NCBI GenBank assembly: GCA_022759035.1
Contig: JAEMQD010000043.1
Location: 1 to 43,151 of the forward strand
DNA: 43,151 nt
Direction of reading: 5' to 3'
Source: Thiotrichales bacterium
Lineage (GTDB): Bacteria > Pseudomonadota > Gammaproteobacteria > Thiomicrospirales > Thiomicrospiraceae
Shown here: piece by piece, positions 5,696 through 27,796 of the stretch
Layout of the letters: each line of letters begins with the position of its first letter
Position numbering within the stretch: position 1 is the stretch's first letter
The notes under the pieces: model-generated
Databases searched by the model: none
Seen by the model: the letters and a program-made list of their open reading frames with translations, nothing else
What the model was told of the DNA's origin: nothing
Position numbers and translations under genes: made by a program

Positions 5696-6532
5696 ATGGC
5701 AACGTTGGTTATTCATCGCCCAACATTAAGCGCACACGAACAACAATTATTAACGCACTATTTTGGACAAACGGCGCAGCCTATCGAACACCATCATCGT
5801 ATTGCGCTAGAAAGCAGTCCAAGCAATGAATTGTTAACAGCAGCGCGTGCCGCATCAAACTGGGATCTTAATCTCCTGCCAGACGGTTTCGATGGTAGCC
5901 AAATCAAATTAATTGTTTCAGACATGGATTCAACCTTAATTAACATCGAATGTATTGATGAAATTGGCGCACACTTAGGCATTAAAGACAAAATCAGCGA
6001 AATTACCGAAGCAGCAATGCGTGGGGAATTAAACTTTGAGCAATCGTTAACTCAGCGTGTTGCATTGCTTGCAGGTACGCCATTATCGGCATTAGAAGCC
6101 GTTTACCACGAACGCTTGCAACTGAATGAGGGGGCTGAACAGCTGATTGCCTATCTAAAACAACGAGAAATTAAATTCGCTTTAGTTTCTGGCGGCTTTA
6201 CCTTCTTTACCGATCGCTTGCAAGCACGTTTGGGGTTAGACTTTACCCGAGCGAATCAGCTCGACTTCGATCCCAATGCACACACAACCGGCAAAGTGCT
6301 AGGTGAGATTATTGGTGCTGAAGCGAAACGCACATTCTTGCTTGAGCTGTGTGATCAATTAGAAATTGGTAATAACCAGACTATTGCTGTAGGTGACGGC
6401 GCCAACGATTTACGCATGATGCAAGATGCTGGCTTATCTGTTGCCTACCACGCCAAACCAACGGTGCAAACGGCTGCCGACACCGTACTCAATCATCGCG
6501 GCTTAGACGCAATGATTGATTTTCTGGTTTAA
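5696..6532 (+). CDS. serB: Phosphoserine phosphatase SerB
   Basis: A 278-residue HAD-superfamily phosphatase catalysing the last step of L-serine synthesis (phosphoserine to serine). HAD motif I is SDMDSTLINIECIDEIG with the DxDxT nucleophile (about residues 77-81). Motif II is FALVSGGFTFF. The Lys of motif III is in GEIIGAEAKR, and motif IV is VGDGANDLRMM. The N-terminal about 70 residues are shorter than the N-terminal region of the 322-residue E. coli enzyme and do not show an obvious ACT domain. AGGAAACAAGCT precedes the ATG. The gene ends 3 bp before the convergent bolA stop. Confidence 0.96.
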   Translation: MATLVIHRPTLSAHEQQLLTHYFGQTAQPIEHHHRIALESSPSNELLTAARAASNWDLNLLPDGFDGSQIKLIVSDMDSTLINIECIDEIGAHLGIKDKISEITEAAMRGELNFEQSLTQRVALLAGTPLSALEAVYHERLQLNEGAEQLIAYLKQREIKFALVSGGFTFFTDRLQARLGLDFTRANQLDFDPNAHTTGKVLGEIIGAEAKRTFLLELCDQLEIGNNQTIAVGDGANDLRMMQDAGLSVAYHAKPTVQTAADTVLNHRGLDAMIDFLV

Positions 6533-6535
6533 CCC

Positions 6536-6844
6536 TTAATGCCCTTTGTGACCAGCGCATGTTGGGCTATCGGGCGCCACGCCGCCGCGTGATTGCCATT
6601 CTTCTGGCGTGTAAGTGTGAATCCCCAATGCATGAACAACGCCATCGGTAGTGGCTTTAATCACCGATTGCACCATGCGATGACGAGCAACCAGTGTTTT
6701 ACCTACAAAAGCGTCACTCACTAGGGTAATTTTGAAATGCGAATGACCACCCTTGCCACTTGAATGCAGGTAGCTTTCGTTATCGACTTCAATAAACGTA
6801 GGTAACAACGCTTGTGTAAGCAAGTCGGTTATTTGTTGCTCCAT
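6536..6844 (-). CDS. bolA: BolA family protein
   Basis: A 102-residue BolA protein. The signature is visible as SSGKGGHSHFKITLVSDAF, KTLVARHRMVQSVI and ALGIHTYTPEEW, which form the alpha-beta fold with the conserved helix-turn and the invariant His in the last motif. BolA proteins pair with monothiol glutaredoxins for Fe-S handling and can act as morphology or biofilm regulators. The C-terminal tail contains a Cys and His (CAGHKGH) that could be extra metal ligands. It starts 3 bp after the stop of the DUF302 gene upstream, so the two are probably one transcript. The serB stop is convergent. Confidence 0.93.
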   Translation of the reverse strand: MEQQITDLLTQALLPTFIEVDNESYLHSSGKGGHSHFKITLVSDAFVGKTLVARHRMVQSVIKATTDGVVHALGIHTYTPEEWQSRGGVAPDSPTCAGHKGH

Positions 6845-6847
6845 GTC

Positions 6848-7321
6848 TTACTCCGCAACACTTTGAATAATATCATCTAGCAAACGATGAATCGGTTGGT
6901 ATATTTTCATACTTGGCGGTATTTTATAGCTTAAAAATACTTTATTGGCCTCATTTGGCAAAGTATAAATAGAAATACCATAAGGACAAAGCGCGATATT
7001 ATGTGGGTTTTCTCGCATCATCGCCTGAGACAAGTCTGCCTTACAAAACAACAACGTCTCACCACCTGTGTCATAAACATTGGTTTTGTAACCCAAATCG
7101 GCACTCGTTCTATCTAACATGTCTTTAACATGCGAAACAGCACTAATTACCATACCACGCTCTTCAATGGCTGCGTTCAAATCTTCTCTTGCTTGCTGAT
7201 AGCTTTTACCGCTAATGGTGTACACCATCGCTTCATTTATTTTCTGTGGTTTAATGGGCGCAGCCATAGCCAACTGCACGGTCACAAGCGCTAGCGCCCC
7301 GACAAAGAAAGACACTTTCAT
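6848..7321 (-). CDS. DUF302 domain protein, exported
   Basis: A 157-residue protein with an N-terminal signal peptide (about 20 residues, ending near AMAA) and then a DUF302 domain. The features are YTISGKSYQQAREDLNAAIEERG, the middle cysteine in TLLFCKADLSQAMM, and the family motif HNIALCPYGISIYTLP. The two Cys and the exported location are typical of DUF302 proteins. Their function is unknown; they are often found in sulfur- or metal-metabolising bacteria. It is cotranscribed with bolA (3-bp spacing) and divergent from the ferredoxin gene. Confidence 0.85.
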   Translation of the reverse strand: MKVSFFVGALALVTVQLAMAAPIKPQKINEAMVYTISGKSYQQAREDLNAAIEERGMVISAVSHVKDMLDRTSADLGYKTNVYDTGGETLLFCKADLSQAMMRENPHNIALCPYGISIYTLPNEANKVFLSYKIPPSMKIYQPIHRLLDDIIQSVAE

Positions 7322-7682: not shown

Positions 7683-9186
7683 CTAATGCGGCTAAGTCTA
7701 ATTTACCGCTAGCCAATACGGGCAATTTTTCGACCACCAAGAAGGCGCGCGGTAACACAATTTCTGGCAACTGTTGCTGTTTCGCTACTTCTGCTAACAA
7801 GCTTCGAGACAAGTGTGGGTTTGTTGTCAGCAATACAATACGCTCACCGCGCTGAGGGTCGGCAACGGCTGCGGCAGCATGTTGTCCTTCTGGATCAAGA
7901 TGTTGCGCCAAACTTTCAGTTACCGCCAACGAAACCATTTCACCACCTACTTTAGCGAATCGTTTTTGTCTGCCAAGTATCGTCAACGTGCCGTCATCAT
8001 TCATACAAGCCAAGTCACCTGTGTCGTACCAAGGTGCCCCCAAAAGAGAGGGAACGGGCGACAGTCTTTGCGGTGCTTCCGCTAAATAATAACCGAGCAT
8101 AACATTAGGTCCAGAGACATGCAGCCGACCGCCAACCGCCAAGCCATCTACAGGAGAAAATGCGGCTTGCATCATTGGAATTAATTGCCCGACACTGCCG
8201 ACTTTATTATTTTCCAAGGTGTTTACGGCAATTACTGGTGCGGTTTCTGTAACACCGTACCCCTCTAAAATCGGAATTGAAAAACGATTTTGCCAATACG
8301 TGCGTACAGTTGGCTGCAGCTTTTCAGCGCCAGCAATAACATAACGCAATGATGCCATATCATCGTCATCTGCACTTCTACCCCATTGACTAAAAAAGGA
8401 GCTAGAGCCAAACAATACCGTGCACTGTTTAGCTTTAATGGCTTTAGGAATTTGCTTTACCAATAAAGGACTGGGATACAGCACGACATAATAGCCTTTT
8501 AATAAAGGCAACAAACATCCTACAGTTAATCCAAAAGAGTGAAACAATGGTAAGGCAATAAAGAAACGATCATTCGGCAAAAAATCGAGTTGTGCGCAAG
8601 TCTGCTCGATGTTAATAAATAAATTGTTGTGCGATAAAGCAACACCTTTCGGCGAGCCTTCCGAACCAGAAGTAAACAACACCACCGCTTCATCATCGGG
8701 AAGAATGGTTTGCGCAATTGCCATGTCTACTTCGATTAACTCGGGCTGTTGTTCTATGTCTTCAATAAATAACCACTGTACCTCTGGTAAAGTGCTCGGT
8801 AGTGCTTGCGCATTAACCGCCTCCAAGAATTTTCTTGATGACACCACCAATGTTAATCCGACTACCTGACATGCCGCTTGTATCCCGGCAACACCAGCAG
8901 TAATGTTTAATACTGCCGCGACGTGATGCTCTGACCAAGCAGCGAATAAAGCAGACAAGGTTTCTGGATGCGATGGTAATAAAAATCCAATCGGCGTGTT
9001 TTTCGGCTGACTTTGCCATAAAGTGCGTAGCGAAATGGCACGGTTGTACAAATCTCGATAGGTCCACACTTGTTCTGACATATCTTCGATAACAGCACGA
9101 GACCAACCGTGCGTTGCTCCAGCGAGTAAAAAAGCACGCCACAATCCCCCTTGTGGACATGAAGAAAGTGGCTTATCTTGTATCAT
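7660..9186 (-). CDS. AMP-binding enzyme: acyl-CoA / acyl-ACP synthetase-like
   Basis: A 508-residue adenylate-forming enzyme of the ANL superfamily. The P-loop-like signature is VVLFTSGSEGSPKGVALSH. The A5 motif is ILEGYGVTETAPVIAVN, and the A7/A8 region is PWYDTGDLACMNDDG, followed by LGRQKRFAKVGGEMVSL. The catalytic Lys near the C-terminus is in VLASGKLDLAAL. The overall style resembles the synthetase half of Aas (acyl-ACP synthetase/lysophospholipid acyltransferase), without the acyltransferase half. It therefore probably activates fatty acids for membrane-lipid recycling, though a CoA ligase of other acids is possible. It overlaps the ferredoxin gene tail-to-tail and follows the HD-GYP remnant by 18 bp. 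Confidence 0.85.
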   Translation of the reverse strand: MIQDKPLSSCPQGGLWRAFLLAGATHGWSRAVIEDMSEQVWTYRDLYNRAISLRTLWQSQPKNTPIGFLLPSHPETLSALFAAWSEHHVAAVLNITAGVAGIQAACQVVGLTLVVSSRKFLEAVNAQALPSTLPEVQWLFIEDIEQQPELIEVDMAIAQTILPDDEAVVLFTSGSEGSPKGVALSHNNLFINIEQTCAQLDFLPNDRFFIALPLFHSFGLTVGCLLPLLKGYYVVLYPSPLLVKQIPKAIKAKQCTVLFGSSSFFSQWGRSADDDDMASLRYVIAGAEKLQPTVRTYWQNRFSIPILEGYGVTETAPVIAVNTLENNKVGSVGQLIPMMQAAFSPVDGLAVGGRLHVSGPNVMLGYYLAEAPQRLSPVPSLLGAPWYDTGDLACMNDDGTLTILGRQKRFAKVGGEMVSLAVTESLAQHLDPEGQHAAAAVADPQRGERIVLLTTNPHLSRSLLAEVAKQQQLPEIVLPRAFLVVEKLPVLASGKLDLAALASLAMQA

Positions 9187-9204
9187 AATCTTTATTACTT
9201 TTAG

Positions 9205-9596
9205 TTAAGAAAAAACAAACTTATCCGCCACTAATTGGCGTAAAGTCACGCGATAATTATGAATATGCGTATCAGCATCGCGACGTGCAATCGCCTCGCC
9301 CATCACTTCTAATAGTTCGATATTACCTTGCAAAACCGCTTGAGATTGCCTTGCCAAATCTTGCGTTAACCGAACCAATAAGGGATACATAACTGCGCCA
9401 GTAATCAGGGTAGCGAGCACAACCATTAATACCGAAAAAAGTAGCGCATCTCGTAAACCTTGTGCATCATCGGCACTTAAAAAAATAACGTTAATTGATA
9501 AAAATACTGCGACGTTCCCAATAACAACGACATAAACAAGGTGATAATCGCTATGCGCCACCATGCTTTTTTCTTGATACTTTGAATCGATTGCAC
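9205..9596 (-). pseudogene. Decayed HD-GYP c-di-GMP phosphodiesterase-type gene (frameshift and 3' truncation)
   Basis: Two overlapping minus-strand frames together read like the beginning of a membrane HD-GYP protein. Frame one starts at a GTG (9596) with QSIQSIKKKAWWRIAIITLF and stops right after a T7 run (minus strand 9485-9479). The other frame continues as LSADDAQGLRDALLFSVLMV, a second membrane helix, then NIELLEVMGEAIARRDADTH and IHNYRVTL. That last part is the entry of an HD-GYP domain. One extra T in the homopolymer would join the two frames. The homology then breaks off after NYRVTL and the frame ends with RQLVADKFVFS, so the entire catalytic domain is missing. It starts 3 nt after the stop of the LuxR-type gene, so the two were an operon. 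Confidence 0.75.
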
Positions 9597-21975: not shown

Positions 21976-22845
21976 TTAATCGACATCTTGCATCGATAAC
22001 GCTGAATTATGCGGGTGTTGCACCGAATCGCTGCGATATTTGAGCACTTCCAATCGACCGTCTTCATGCTCGACTAAGGCTGTGCAAGACTCCACCCAAT
22101 CACCACAATTACAATAAACAGCATTATCAATATAACGCATTTCTGCATGGTGAATATGCCCGCACACCACGCCGTCCATACCTTGTTTATGCGCATCGCG
22201 TATTAATAGGTTTTCATACTCATGAATGTACATAATGGCTCTTTTAACGCGATGCTTCAAATAAGCTGATAAAGACCAATAGCCAAACCCAAAATACTGG
22301 CGCAAGCGATTAAACCATCTGTTCACATGTAACATGCTTTCATAAGCCCAATCACCCAATAACGCCAACCAACGATGACAAGTCACAACGCCATCATAAG
22401 CATCGCCATGCAACACCCACAATCGTTTACCTAAATAGGTTTCATGAACAACTTCATCACACAACTCGATGTTACCAAAATGGATACCAGAATAACGGCG
22501 CAAAAAATCATCATGATTTCCCGTAACATAAACAATACGACTGCCACGCTTTGCTTTGGTAAATAATCTACGAATAACATCGGTATGACTTTGCGGCCAA
22601 AAGTGTCGTTTTTTCAAGCGCCAGCCGTCAACAATATCACCCACCAAATAAATAACAGGCGCATGATGAAACTTAAGAAACTCAGCTAAAGCTTCTGCTT
22701 GGCATCCCTTCGAACCCAAATGCACATCCGAAATAAATAACGCACGATAATAGCGGTGAACGCCATCGGCTAATTCATCGACTGGCATCCATGAAGGATC
22801 TGAAACATCGGATAACAAAAATGCTTGTTTTAAGGCCTCTGTCAT
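21976..22845 (-). CDS. PlcP-type calcineurin-like metallophosphoesterase (phospholipid-degrading candidate)
   Basis: A 289-residue metallophosphoesterase with every catalytic motif: D40-x-H42 (FISDVHLGSKG), GD70 (YLVGDIVDGW), GNHDD (109-113), H146 (VLHGDAYD) and GHIHHAE (229-235). It resembles LpxH superficially but more closely the PlcP group (Sinorhizobium type), in which the enzyme strips the head group from phospholipids to give diacylglycerol during phosphate starvation. The segment YLVGDIVDGWRLKKRHFWPQ is typical of that group. Its gene starts 3 bp after the GNAT-like gene and belongs to the operon led by the btaA homologue. That context supports the role of supplying DAG to BtaA. It converges with the CDF remnant. 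Confidence 0.85.
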   Translation of the reverse strand: MTEALKQAFLLSDVSDPSWMPVDELADGVHRYYRALFISDVHLGSKGCQAEALAEFLKFHHAPVIYLVGDIVDGWRLKKRHFWPQSHTDVIRRLFTKAKRGSRIVYVTGNHDDFLRRYSGIHFGNIELCDEVVHETYLGKRLWVLHGDAYDGVVTCHRWLALLGDWAYESMLHVNRWFNRLRQYFGFGYWSLSAYLKHRVKRAIMYIHEYENLLIRDAHKQGMDGVVCGHIHHAEMRYIDNAVYCNCGDWVESCTALVEHEDGRLEVLKYRSDSVQHPHNSALSMQDVD

Positions 22846-22848
22846 TAC

Positions 22849-24018
22849 TTATAGCCCTTGCTTAATCAAAAAAGAAGGCACGCTTTTTCCCAATAACCAA
22901 CCAGTTAAACGCATTGCGCCGTGCTGCCAAAAAGGCAAATGACGACTATAAAAAGCATGCCACTCGATTACTGGCCGACCACCACGCATTTTTTTAAACT
23001 TCGCAGAACCAGCCCCTAAATTGAGCACTTTATGTTGCTCTAAAGACAGTGCCAATACTTTTGCCATAAGCAAACGGTATAACGCCATGTTTTGTGGCAA
23101 ACAGGTGTCGTAACCAAGCATCGGCGTTGTCATTGTTGTCTCATTTTCAAAAACACCAATAAAAGCCACCAATCGCCCAGTTTCATCACGAAAACCGTAA
23201 AACGACAACCAGCCTAGGTCAATCGCCTGTGCAAAGTAAGTCGCGTTATAATGGGCATTCCATTGAGAATGTTTTTCTAAATACAATTGCGTATAAAGTT
23301 TTGCCATTGCATTGCTATCCAACTGGGTAAAATCCTTAGGCTCAACCAGCGTCAAATGCGTTGAACGCAGTAATTTTTGATCAATTTGATTATTACGACG
23401 ATTCGCCCAATCTGCCGCATGCTTTGGATCAAAAACATATACCTGTCTACTTGGCCACAATTGCCATCCCTGTGTCACAAGGCGAGACATCAACACGCCA
23501 TCACTCACTGTATTTAAAGTGCGCATCCACAAAGGTCTATCAGGAAAATTGGCGACCAAGGTGTCCGTCAATAAAGACAAACGATCTATCGTCCATTGCG
23601 GATACAAATGCGTTGAAACGCCCCATGCGTTGACACTCACTGCTCGATCTAACCCCAAGCCTTCAAACCATGGATCAGCAATAGATAACGCCAAATTAAC
23701 CCACCAACGCAAATGTGGTTGATCAATCTGATCAAGCTCGTCTTTAGCGTAATCAATATATCCATGATGTGGCGAGGCGATATAGGTTTGCCCATCACCA
23801 ACCCGACCAAGCGCTAAAGGTAGCAAACTGTCCTCTAGTTTTAACAAAGCAGTTTGTGCATACCAATTATCAATAAGCGACGTTGCAGAGAGTGCCTTGA
23901 CCCAATCAACCGAGACACCATGATAAGGCACATCCTGCAAAGCATCGCCACTAAAAATACGCGAGTGGCGTGACATACCGTCGTTAAACGGTACGTGTAT
24001 AGATAAAACATCCGCCAT
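22849..24018 (-). CDS. GNAT/FemAB-like acyltransferase-fold protein inside the btaA-plcP operon
   Basis: A 389-residue protein that I do not recognise as a named enzyme. The C-terminal part looks like a GNAT/FemAB-type acyltransferase fold: YTQLYLEKHSQWNAHYNATY, LVAFIGVFENETTMTTPMLG, LLMAKVLALSLEQHKVLNLG and AGSAKFKKMRGGRP. There is no signal peptide or clear membrane helix. The start is ambiguous: ATG 24018 overlaps the btaA 3' end by 35 bp without a good Shine-Dalgarno, while ATG 23976 lies 7 nt after the btaA stop. Being between BtaA- and PlcP-type genes, it may modify the amino group of the homoserine lipid or a related head group. That is inference. Confidence 0.6.
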   Translation of the reverse strand: MADVLSIHVPFNDGMSRHSRIFSGDALQDVPYHGVSVDWVKALSATSLIDNWYAQTALLKLEDSLLPLALGRVGDGQTYIASPHHGYIDYAKDELDQIDQPHLRWWVNLALSIADPWFEGLGLDRAVSVNAWGVSTHLYPQWTIDRLSLLTDTLVANFPDRPLWMRTLNTVSDGVLMSRLVTQGWQLWPSRQVYVFDPKHAADWANRRNNQIDQKLLRSTHLTLVEPKDFTQLDSNAMAKLYTQLYLEKHSQWNAHYNATYFAQAIDLGWLSFYGFRDETGRLVAFIGVFENETTMTTPMLGYDTCLPQNMALYRLLMAKVLALSLEQHKVLNLGAGSAKFKKMRGGRPVIEWHAFYSRHLPFWQHGAMRLTGWLLGKSVPSFLIKQGL

Positions 24019-25195
24019 ATATTGCCGACCTATCTGCTTGCCAAAATGCTGTATTTTTCTGTTGATCGGTTGTCCATGTTGCCAAGAGATGTGGCGACAA
24101 CATTGCTTCTAAGGGTGACTCAGCACCCGCGGCACGGAAAATAACACGAGCACCTAATCGTGCTGTTCTATTCACTTCCGTCCATAACGCATTGAGTTGC
24201 GATTCAGACATCCAATCTTGTGCATCTAAGAAAACAAAAACATCCACGCTCATTGCTGGACGCGTCGCCAAATAATCGGTAACAGATTGATGATAAATAG
24301 AAACACGATCCTGCGCTTGTTGCGTGTGAGCATAATGCTGTTGCTGTAAATACAAAGGCAAAGCTTGTTGATCTTCCGCATTAAAACGACGCGCGAAAGC
24401 CTGCCAAGCAAAATAATTATCAGCAAGTGGATAATCACAAGCCAAGTGACGCAAGCGTGCTTTAAGCACATCGGCCATATGGCTCGCATCACCTTTTAAT
24501 ACCTGATACTGACGTGGTGGAATACCCAAACCATACAATACCCATACTTGAGAGGACAACCAACGAACCACTTTATGATCAAAAAGTGGCGCAATACGCT
24601 GATCAAAAATCTCGGCCGCCTCTTCCTGTGTTTTAGCCTGCATGATCACCGATAAGTCATAACCAAGACGTTTTGCCAACCAATGACCAAAACCAATAAA
24701 GTTGCCTAACAAACCTTCCTTGTAAAAATCACGGCTAAACCAAGCTGCTCTTCCCTTATCCTGCACACTACCCCAATATTGTTGTGCATAAACAGGCAAA
24801 TGCGGCATAACCTTAGCCATTAATGCCTCATTACTTGGTAAGTTAGCTAAAGCGAATAAACGATGAAACTCATCATAAGTTAAGTGCGTGGCGGCTGTTT
24901 GCTTTAACGCTAGCAGCGCTAAATGTGCCTCGTTCAAATCAACCGCTGCAATATGTGCTGGCTGGCCAGACAAATAAGATAATACATTACAGCCGCCCGA
25001 AGTAAGACAAACCATATTTTGCCCAGAAATATCTCCCAATGCCGCCATATCGGAAACAGGGTCTTCCCAAATCAATGGATAAACAAGACGATTAAACCAA
25101 TGCACAAACAGCTTATCTAACAGACTTCTTCCCTCTCGTTGTGACTCATGAGAAGACAAGCCAACCGCGTTATCCAATAGTAATTTACTCGACAT
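23984..25195 (-). CDS. btaA: BtaA-like S-adenosylmethionine:diacylglycerol 3-amino-3-carboxypropyl transferase (DUF3419)
   Basis: A 403-residue DUF3419 protein, matching bacterial BtaA in length. In characterised members (Rhodobacter sphaeroides) it transfers the 3-amino-3-carboxypropyl group of SAM to diacylglycerol to give diacylglycerylhomoserine. The opening IWEDPVSDMAALGDISGQNM is followed by the SAM-site segment LTSGGCNVLSYLSGQPAHIA and AVDLNEAHLALLALK. GIPPRQYQVLKGD and VFVFLDAQDWMSESQLNALW are the usual later motifs. AAGGAATAACA precedes the ATG. It leads a three-gene operon with a PHO-box-like site 59 bp upstream. No BtaB N-methyltransferase gene is adjacent, so it may make DGHS or a new derivative rather than DGTS. 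Confidence 0.88.
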   Translation of the reverse strand: MSSKLLLDNAVGLSSHESQREGRSLLDKLFVHWFNRLVYPLIWEDPVSDMAALGDISGQNMVCLTSGGCNVLSYLSGQPAHIAAVDLNEAHLALLALKQTAATHLTYDEFHRLFALANLPSNEALMAKVMPHLPVYAQQYWGSVQDKGRAAWFSRDFYKEGLLGNFIGFGHWLAKRLGYDLSVIMQAKTQEEAAEIFDQRIAPLFDHKVVRWLSSQVWVLYGLGIPPRQYQVLKGDASHMADVLKARLRHLACDYPLADNYFAWQAFARRFNAEDQQALPLYLQQQHYAHTQQAQDRVSIYHQSVTDYLATRPAMSVDVFVFLDAQDWMSESQLNALWTEVNRTARLGARVIFRAAGAESPLEAMLSPHLLATWTTDQQKNTAFWQADRSAIYGGCFIYTRTV

Positions 25196-25253: not shown

Positions 25254-25271
25254 GTGACAGAAATATGACAA
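25254..25271 (-). promoter_or_regulatory. PHO-box-like PhoB site upstream of the btaA operon
   Basis: On the minus strand TTGTCAT-ATTT-CTGTCAC. The two 7-bp repeats are spaced with an 11-bp period, like the PhoB consensus CTGTCAT-AWAW-CTGTCAY. The only departures are the first C and part of the AT spacer. A weaker third repeat (TGTTCAT) lies 11 bp further upstream. It is 59 bp before the btaA start. Confidence 0.75.
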
Positions 25272-25426: not shown

Positions 25427-26161
25427 GTGCATAACCCAATTAGCCAACTATGGTTCAGAGATAAAAACGAACAACCTACCTATATTAACGAAGTTGCTGT
25501 GCGTATTCGTGCTGGCATTTTATTGGCAATCCCGCTTTATATGGGGCTAACGTTATTTGATGTTGGTTTCGGTTCGCATTGGATTGTCGATGGCAACACT
25601 GCCGTTGACTCTGGTGATACCGATTTTGATGGCCACATTGTTTACACAGCGGAAATGATTCGCCGCACTTACGATTACACCATACAAACATGGGTGCTTT
25701 TTTACGCCCTATTTGAAATGATCGCTGGCATGTTTGTTAGCACATCACACCTATCACCAACAATTTGGTTATCCAGCTACATTGCACGTAACCAACCCGA
25801 AGTTTTCAAGCCACTTAACCCAAAACGCATGGCTTGGTCTATTGGGGCAATTATGATCAGCACTTGTATTGTTTTCTTTAATCCTGTTCCTGTAGCTGAA
25901 GCATTAAACAGTCTTTTTCATTTTTCATTACCAACCGAATACAGCTTTATGCCCTTTTGGATTCCTGTTTATGGTGTGTGGATTTGTATTGGCTTTATGT
26001 GGGCAGAAGTGACCTTTGGTTTTTGTGTAGGCTGCAAACTACACGCTTTACTTGTAAAGCTTGGCATATTTAAAGAAGAATGCGAAGCATGTAACAACAT
26101 CGATTGGGAGGCAATCGCTGCAAGACATAAAGCAAAACTAGAAGCAGAAGCCACCAAATAA
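25427..26161 (+). CDS. DUF4395 family membrane protein
   Basis: A 244-residue inner-membrane protein. The hydrophobic segments (for example AGILLAIPLYMGLTLFDVGF, VLFYALFEMIAGMFV, IGAIMISTCIVFFNP) form about four to five helices. The C-terminal part carries the DUF4395 hallmark GFCVGCKLHALLVKLGIF followed by EECEACNNIDW, two Cys pairs that could form a redox or metal site. DUF4395 proteins have no established function and some are larger than this. GTG is the start, with AAGGAG 7 nt upstream. It is divergent from btaA and convergent with the olsA-like gene, and is the only non-lipid gene in the island. Confidence 0.75.
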   Translation: MHNPISQLWFRDKNEQPTYINEVAVRIRAGILLAIPLYMGLTLFDVGFGSHWIVDGNTAVDSGDTDFDGHIVYTAEMIRRTYDYTIQTWVLFYALFEMIAGMFVSTSHLSPTIWLSSYIARNQPEVFKPLNPKRMAWSIGAIMISTCIVFFNPVPVAEALNSLFHFSLPTEYSFMPFWIPVYGVWICIGFMWAEVTFGFCVGCKLHALLVKLGIFKEECEACNNIDWEAIAARHKAKLEAEATK

Positions 26162-26191: not shown

Positions 26192-26929
26192 TTACACTTC
26201 CGCTTCAAGATTAGCACAAATCGCTGTTCTAGCAATTTGTGCTAGTGTATTTCTGTTACAACCCTCAACCGAAATTAACGACATAAAACTAACCTGCGCG
26301 ATTACCCGTTGTTGTTTTAGCAACTGCCATAAGTTTTGAATAAAGCTCTGCGTCCCTACATAAGCGATATCTGCCTTCTTATGCGCCGCTGTTAGATAAG
26401 TTAAGGCAATCGGTTGCACAGGTTTTTGCAAATCAATCGGTAGCGCAAACAACCGCGCATGAAACAGTTTAGGTACGCCATCTGTGGTTGTGCCTTCTGG
26501 GAAAAACAGTATCGCATCTCCCTGTTGCACCAACTGCCTTAACAACGCCATCGCCTCTGCCGTCTCACCTTGTCCTCTACGCAGAAAAACCGTACCACTT
26601 CGCTGTGCCAACCAGCCAATCAACGGCCAACTTGCAACTTCAGCTTTAGATAAAAAGCGACAAGGCATGACAGACATCAACACCACAATGTCTAACCAAG
26701 AAATATGATTCGCTACCCACACACTTCCCGTCGCGGCAGCACCACGTTGCCTGACATGAACGGCCAGAATCGTTAATAAACCACGAGCCCACCAACGAAT
26801 AATCCGTTGATGGCGTGGTGAATAAGCTTCGTGCTTGCGCACGTTAACAGCAAATAAAGCAACGCCAACCCCAACAAGCAACCAAACGGTTAAAGCAACT
26901 AAGCGAATCAGTGCATGGAAATAGCGCAT
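26192..26929 (-). CDS. 1-acyl-glycerol-type acyltransferase (PlsC family), probable OlsA
   Basis: A 245-residue membrane acyltransferase. Two N-terminal helices (LIRLVALTVWLLVGVGVALF) precede the PlsC motif H-x4-D in WVANHISWLDIVV. Motif II is SGTVFLRRGQG, and motif III is ILFFPEGTTTDGVPKLFHAR. In ornithine-lipid synthesis OlsA esterifies the lyso-lipid made by OlsB with a second acyl chain. Here the gene starts by 1-nt overlap (TAATG) with the olsB-like stop, which makes the OlsB-OlsA pairing much more likely than a general PlsC. It shares the PHO-box-controlled promoter of olsB. The 30-bp gap to the convergent DUF4395 stop has no clear terminator. Confidence 0.83.
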   Translation of the reverse strand: MRYFHALIRLVALTVWLLVGVGVALFAVNVRKHEAYSPRHQRIIRWWARGLLTILAVHVRQRGAAATGSVWVANHISWLDIVVLMSVMPCRFLSKAEVASWPLIGWLAQRSGTVFLRRGQGETAEAMALLRQLVQQGDAILFFPEGTTTDGVPKLFHARLFALPIDLQKPVQPIALTYLTAAHKKADIAYVGTQSFIQNLWQLLKQQRVIAQVSFMSLISVEGCNRNTLAQIARTAICANLEAEV

Positions 26930-27714
26930 TAGGCAGCCATTGCTAATGAAGCGCTATGCTCAACAACTGGTGGCATCGGCGCTGCACGCTGTAAAAAATG
27001 GCGCGCATAACGTGGGTTCAAATCTTGCACATCAAGCAGAATAAAGAAATCAGCGACGCCAAACTCTACATCTAAACAAGGATCACCACACACTTTAGCA
27101 CCTAAGCGCAAATAAGCTTTTAATAATGGCGGCCATACAATTTCTACTTCTGTGTTATGTGATAACTGAGGCATAGGCACACGCGGAGAAACACAACGCT
27201 CTCTATCGGCTAACAAGTTTTTATCTTGTAAATACTGACGAATAGCACTTACCTGCACGCCACCATCAGCAACTGGCACACTCGCACAACCCATCAAAAA
27301 ATCAAACCCTTCTTCTAACATAAAACCAGCCAAACCAGACCACAACACACTAATTGTAGCACCGTTACGGTAGTCAGCATCGACACAAGTTCGACCAATT
27401 TCCATTACTCGACCAGACATACTTCTAATTTTTGTTAAGTCAAACTCATGATCAGAATAATAATAGCCGCCGACTTCATTGGCTATCTTATCGGTCAGAA
27501 TACGCGTACAAGCAACGACTTTGTTCGTTACACAATCCTCGACTAACAAATGATCACACACCTCATCAAAACCATCTTTATCTAAGCCAAGATGACTTGT
27601 TGGCAACTTTGCTCCCATTTCCTGAGCAAACACTTCATAACGCAATCGCTGGCAAGCAATAACATCGTACTGGCTTTGAGCCAATCTTACGCGTAACATT
27701 TTTTCAGCTAACAT
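26929..27714 (-). CDS. olsB: OlsB-like ornithine N-acyltransferase (hemolysin-like GNAT)
   Basis: A 261-residue protein of the OlsB/hemolysin-like acyltransferase group, which acylates ornithine with a 3-hydroxyacyl-ACP as the first step to ornithine lipid. Family landmarks are LRYEVFAQEMGAKLP, CDHLLVEDCVTNKVVACTRI, EIGRTCVDADYRNGATISVL, MGCASVPVADGG and AYLRLGAKVCGDPCLDVEFG. The order and length match well. The ATG at 27714 has AAGGG about 9-10 nt upstream; an in-frame ATG lies five codons later. A PHO-box-like pair lies 65-82 bp upstream, in keeping with phosphate-starvation control. It is coupled to the olsA-like gene and divergent from the EAL-CBS-GGDEF gene. Confidence 0.88.
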   Translation of the reverse strand: MLAEKMLRVRLAQSQYDVIACQRLRYEVFAQEMGAKLPTSHLGLDKDGFDEVCDHLLVEDCVTNKVVACTRILTDKIANEVGGYYYSDHEFDLTKIRSMSGRVMEIGRTCVDADYRNGATISVLWSGLAGFMLEEGFDFLMGCASVPVADGGVQVSAIRQYLQDKNLLADRERCVSPRVPMPQLSHNTEVEIVWPPLLKAYLRLGAKVCGDPCLDVEFGVADFFILLDVQDLNPRYARHFLQRAAPMPPVVEHSASLAMAA

Positions 27715-27778: not shown

Positions 27779-27796
27779 ATGACAAGAAGATGACAA
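27779..27796 (-). promoter_or_regulatory. PHO-box-like PhoB site upstream of olsBA
   Basis: On the minus strand TTGTCAT-CTTC-TTGTCAT: two identical 7-bp direct repeats with exactly 4 bp between them, an 11-bp period as in PhoB boxes. The spacer is less AT-rich than the consensus. It lies between olsB and the divergent EAL-CBS-GGDEF gene, 65 bp from the olsB start. Confidence 0.7.

Follow-up and report, generated by a model that had tools for sequence, protein, structure and literature searches.

The contig analyzed here (the window, 43,151 nucleotides) encodes an operon in which btaA is followed directly by MID, a gene for a predicted tandem-GNAT transferase, and then by a plcP-like gene, with no methyltransferase BtaB. 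In the known route to the betaine lipid DGTS, PlcP releases diacylglycerol from phospholipids, BtaA adds the homoserine group from S-adenosylmethionine, and BtaB methylates the amine of the resulting diacylglycerylhomoserine (DGHS). Our best reading of the operon, to which we give an even chance, is that PlcP and BtaA lead to DGHS and that MID forms an amide on the DGHS amine. Under phosphate starvation, PlcP would strip the phosphate headgroup off phospholipids to leave diacylglycerol, onto which BtaA would transfer the 3-amino-3-carboxypropyl group, generating DGHS; MID, in the place usually held by BtaB, would then build an amide on the α-amine, with no methylation by BtaB. The product would be either N-aminoacyl-DGHS, with aminoacyl-tRNA as the donor as in MprF and FemX, or N-acyl-DGHS made from an acyl thioester. 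The PlcP and BtaA steps follow from what is known of these families, and we infer the DGHS substrate, the amide formation, and the donor of MID from its position, its fold, its strict linkage to btaA, and the absence of BtaB.

A first-pass annotation had described three tightly packed minus-strand genes, and both coordinates and strand were confirmed (Table 1). The ends of btaA and MID share 35 bp and the gap from MID to plcP is only 3 bp, so the three genes are very probably co-transcribed. The first gene had been called DUF3419/BtaA, and its product indeed matches PF11899 with 329.8 bits (cut-off 28.2) and is single copy genome-wide. Rhizobial DUF3419/BtaA proteins are 41–45% identical to it at more than 90% coverage, and two of these matches adjoin an annotated class I methyltransferase (BtaB). 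The last gene, annotated as a PlcP-type metallophosphoesterase, keeps a PlcP-like assignment: its product is a Metallophos protein (PF00149, 42 bits) that stays far below both LpxH thresholds (37 bits where 134 are required, 32 where 190 are), and in another gammaproteobacterium (locus L143) btaA-btaB has a homologue (327 bits) as its neighbour. The window phosphoesterase has the context of a PlcP-type enzyme, being calcineurin-like and linked to phosphorus-free lipid genes. A PDB search (phmmer) with the BtaA, MID, and PlcP proteins returned no match for any of the three. Directly upstream of the operon, on the same strand, are olsB and olsA, placing two phosphorus-free lipid pathways side by side; the olsB product matches PF13444 with 108 bits and OlsB models with 153–158 bits, under the equivalog cut-offs. 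The olsBA and btaA neighbourhood is also kept in locus L040.

Table 1 Features of the btaA-MID-plcP locus and its surroundings in the window.
Feature	Position	Strand	Predicted role or remark
btaA (DUF3419)	23984-25195	minus	SAM:diacylglycerol 3-amino-3-carboxypropyltransferase, predicted DGHS maker
MID	22849-24018	minus	Tandem-GNAT, PF13480-like; predicted to N-acylate or N-aminoacylate the BtaA product
plcP-like metallophosphoesterase	21976-22845	minus	Predicted diacylglycerol release from phospholipid
olsB-like ornithine N-acyltransferase	26929-27714	minus	Unit separate from the btaA operon; companion phosphorus-free lipid
olsA-like lyso-ornithine lipid O-acyltransferase	26192-26929	minus	OlsA models 108-125 bits, below cut-offs
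DUF4395 gene	25427-26161	plus	Between the olsBA and btaA units; kept in locus L040
Pho box TTGTCATATTTCTGTCAC	25254-25271	minus	58 bp upstream of the btaA start codon; 0 mismatches to YTGTCAYNNNNYTGTCAY
Pho box TTGTCATCTTCTTGTCAT	27779-27796	minus	Upstream of olsB; perfect match to YTGTCAYNNNNYTGTCAY

Perfect matches to YTGTCAYNNNNYTGTCAY, the standard Pho box, occur only twice in the window, upstream of btaA and of olsB; the expectation is 0.18 per window, allowing up to one mismatch, for a pattern picked after a consensus scan had flagged these two sites. Similar boxes lie upstream of btaA family-wide, with summed best scores of 217 versus 180 ± 2.9 in shuffles, and the host genome encodes PhoB with a score over the cut-off. 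Pho boxes occur in PlcP gene clusters, including those of the PlcP-BtaA-BtaB type, the known DGTS arrangement (PMC4796936). Judged from these sequence features, the operon is best explained as a lipid-remodelling pathway under PhoB control; the phosphate-starvation setting assumed at the outset is borne out by the boxes and the PhoB gene.

The linkage between btaA and MID extends across the host family. btaA is present in 33 of its 63 genomes and MID in exactly those 33 and no others, directly downstream of btaA at every family locus examined. The two genes are gained and lost jointly, both between and within genera, and one genome (G794) contains two copies of each, distributed over two contigs that both carry the pair. 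The chance of this exact co-occurrence is ~1e-18 assuming independent genomes, a figure that serves as a guide only because the family genomes are related. As the pair is kept across a bacterial family, the arrangement is far above chance. In the rest of the phylum, all 29 btaA loci sampled have BtaB next to btaA. plcP is less tied: at most family loci it lies directly after btaA-MID or divergent nearby, following MID in some genera and standing apart or divergent in others, and where it shifts away btaA and MID stay paired. Among the named family hosts are Thiomicrorhabdus, Hydrogenovibrio, and Thiomicrospira. In some Hydrogenovibrio and Thiomicrorhabdus, a GT4-like gene (agt-like, by eye) is found near or divergent from plcP (L029, 7692–8723; L030, 8125–9213; L034, 7499–8584; L038, 8031–9062), which suggests glycolipids as a possible further product. 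We also considered MID as part of an efflux set beyond plcP and rejected this grouping because the RND/TolC neighbours are not conserved, even within a genus.

A scan of a genome collection revealed MID relatives spread over many phyla. The MID tree separates the btaA-linked members from the other homologues with support of 100/95. The btaA-linked side includes Vogesella oryzae (Betaproteobacteria), where btaA lies directly upstream of MID; its exact position in the tree is unsure because of a long branch. This genome lacks BtaB (best profile match 27 bits) and encodes its PlcP homologue (52% identity) away from btaA-MID. The exception in the btaA-linked clade is a MID from MAG G780, labelled Synechococcaceae (locus L051), which stands alone beside efflux genes; a divergent btaA-btaB pair lies on a different contig of this MAG, whose purity is in doubt, and the case may reflect either a mixed bin or another use of MID. 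A single weakly supported branch (62/83) divides the BtaA tree into MID-linked and BtaB-linked proteins.

Outside the family, nearly all inspected MID relatives sit in a different conserved cluster, made up of a KAS III (PRK07204), an OleD-like reductase, an MBL-fold hydrolase near AHL lactonases, the adenylate-forming enzyme TIGR02304, the ATP-grasp protein PRK06849, and often a Rieske protein. Its loci (L067, L069, L078-L080, L083, L105, L109, L110, L113, L115, L122, L123, L125-L127) range over Pseudomonadota, Cyanobacteriota, Bacteroidota, Verrucomicrobiota, and Bacillota, in Ralstonia, Lysobacter, Calothrix, Runella, Clostridium, and other genera. Neither btaA nor plcP was found at the cluster loci examined, and we found no description of the cluster's product. 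The MID homologues there belong to the same family (~26–43% identity) on the other side of the tree. In Shewanella surugensis (L079), two of them (5917–7050 and 8162–9307) flank a Rieske gene within one cluster. Because the wider relatives work in this different cluster, family membership leaves the substrate of MID unfixed.

That MID relatives serve a pathway without BtaA lends some weight to an unlikely but serious alternative, namely that DGHS with its free amine, zwitterionic like phosphatidylethanolamine, is itself the final membrane lipid and that MID (amino)acylates, for instance, a different lipid of the same starvation response. After BtaA, no modifying enzyme is strictly required. 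What speaks against this alternative is the exact co-occurrence of btaA and MID in the 33 family genomes, their adjacency at all examined loci and in Vogesella, and the fact that MID remains with btaA in the genera where plcP leaves.

The reading of MID as an amide-forming enzyme acting on DGHS also draws on its fold. The first-pass annotation recognized an acyltransferase fold that it could place in no named family, and the fold assignment is supported. The window MID scores 20.3 bits against PF13480 (Acetyltransf_6), under the cut-off of 22, and 15 of 18 MID-family members match this family at E ≤ 1 (best 1.2e-7). The window MID has no NCBIfam match, no convincing name from that collection was obtained for MID or its 66 relatives, and a MID sequence profile searched against the PDB retrieved no Fem/MprF chain up to E 10. 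An AlphaFold2 model of MID (67 relatives; pLDDT 93.5, pTM 0.90) has a GNAT/Fem-type fold, whose nearest whole-chain structure is FemX (VIA Z 16.6, rmsd 4.4 Å over 279 residues), followed by Sbb17 (VIA Z 16.4, rmsd 3.9 Å over 259 residues) and the MprF synthase domain (VIA Z 14.7, rmsd 3.8 Å over 253 residues). All three are tandem GNATs that move amino acids from tRNA to amines or lipid headgroups. As modelled, MID has the tandem-GNAT fold of Fem/MprF transferases over most of its chain, at only 10–14% identity, and its length leaves no room for a transmembrane flippase part like that of MprF; MprF shares with the predicted MID activity the modification of a lipid headgroup. The fold leaves the MID donor unfixed, since tandem GNATs that use acyl-CoA also match, with a lower Z (12.4 for N-myristoyltransferase).

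CoA-using GNATs carry the loop motif Q/R-x-x-G-x-G/A. At the equivalent position, the alignment of MID reads roughly [KQ]-x-x-[GA]-L-Y, where the Tyr is invariant; this is a mild argument against an ordinary acetyl-CoA enzyme. Across 67 MID sequences, 18 residues never vary, R166, R191, D213, K342, and R345 among them. A C-terminal cationic amphipathic helix, clear in most MID relatives, is suggestive of membrane contact; we give it no weight because it is weak in the window MID. The first-pass annotation had also likened the product to ornithine lipid, a comparison that survives only loosely. OlsB and OlsA offer an acyltransferase-fold enzyme for a phosphorus-free aminolipid, encoded in the neighbouring unit, which has a separate Pho box; OlsB, however, belongs to PF13444 and acylates free ornithine, whereas MID resembles PF13480, is the longer protein with two domains in tandem, and is coupled to BtaA. 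PF13444 was found neither in MID nor among the families matched by 17 MID relatives, and on this difference of Pfam family we rejected MID as an OlsB-type enzyme. Bacterial ceramide synthase, a lipid-amine N-acyltransferase, was dropped as a precedent, its fold family not being stated in the passages of the source that we consulted. Because MID resembles PF13480 and has the Fem/MprF aminoacyl-transferases as its nearest folds, we rate the transfer of an amino acid and of a fatty acyl group as about equally likely; an acetyl donor is less probable, as MID does not show the usual CoA-binding motif.

The site of transfer could differ from the one we propose. MprF, among the fold relatives, aminoacylates the hydroxyl of phosphatidylglycerol, and by analogy MID might O-acylate the glycerol or carboxylate side, or act before BtaA by supplying or modifying the diacylglycerol acceptor. 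We consider this improbable: two of the glycerol oxygens of DGHS are esterified and one is ether-linked, which leaves its amine as the obvious nucleophile, and it is on this amine that BtaB, replaced here by MID, acts.

The absence of BtaB was assessed with a profile built from rhizobial class I methyltransferases encoded directly after DUF3419/BtaA and from 14 other btaA loci of the phylum. Authentic BtaBs score 231–337 bits, and in three positive-control genomes left out of profile building BtaB was recovered at 331, 314, and 277 bits. BtaB was not found in the host genome (a 99.5% complete draft in 174 contigs), where the best match reaches 42.4 bits, nor in the 18 btaA-bearing family genomes tested, where the maximum is 47.4 bits. 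The matches below 50 bits look like generic methyltransferases, and G053, a family member of genus g2 without btaA, has matches equal to those of the host. No methyltransferase is linked to btaA at the family loci examined. The two outcomes that would have spoken against the first-pass interpretation were not observed: no btaB turned up outside the operon in the host genome, and the linkage of MID to btaA is conserved, in a family whose tested btaA-bearing members have no BtaB either. Generic SAM methyltransferases such as the 42-bit match could in principle make ordinary DGTS as enzymes too unlike BtaB to be recognized, with MID as an accessory protein, but this is less probable still, given that true BtaBs reach at least 231 bits, that equal matches occur in G053 without btaA, and that none of these methyltransferases is btaA-linked in the examined loci.

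Compared with the PlcP-BtaA-BtaB pathway of Rhodobacter, Sinorhizobium, and Phaeobacter MED193, the operon shares BtaA, PlcP, Pho-box control, and a second enzyme encoded directly after btaA; it differs in that this enzyme is the tandem-GNAT MID and not BtaB. BtaA-MID is a variant of the betaine-lipid pathway, not a new kind of system. Neither a btaA-GNAT operon nor an acylated DGHS turned up in our searches of the open-access literature, nor in the homoserine, betaine, and acyltransferase passages of a review on bacterial aminolipids published in 2024 (PMC11631085).

Taken one step further, and held at slightly under an even chance, bacteria of the Thiomicrospira/Hydrogenovibrio/Thiomicrorhabdus type may make a new class of phosphorus-free lipid, N-aminoacyl- or N-acyl-DGHS, through a BtaA-MID branch of the betaine pathway, with MID founding a new family of headgroup transferases. 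btaA is commonly taken as a marker gene for DGTS. About half of the family genomes keep BtaA, and since all tested ones do so without BtaB as methyltransferase partner, btaA would mispredict their lipids. N-acetyl-DGHS, moreover, would be nearly isobaric with DGTS (relative to DGHS, +42.011 versus +42.047 Da), and the two could be confused. The gene set predicts, in a sulfur-oxidising family, a membrane lipid that nobody has looked for yet, and cultured hosts, among them Thiomicrorhabdus chilensis and T. arctica, make this prediction directly testable. If true, the new headgroup would widen the known phosphorus-saving routes of bacteria and would provide a function for one branch of an anonymous protein family that ranges from Clostridium to Calothrix.
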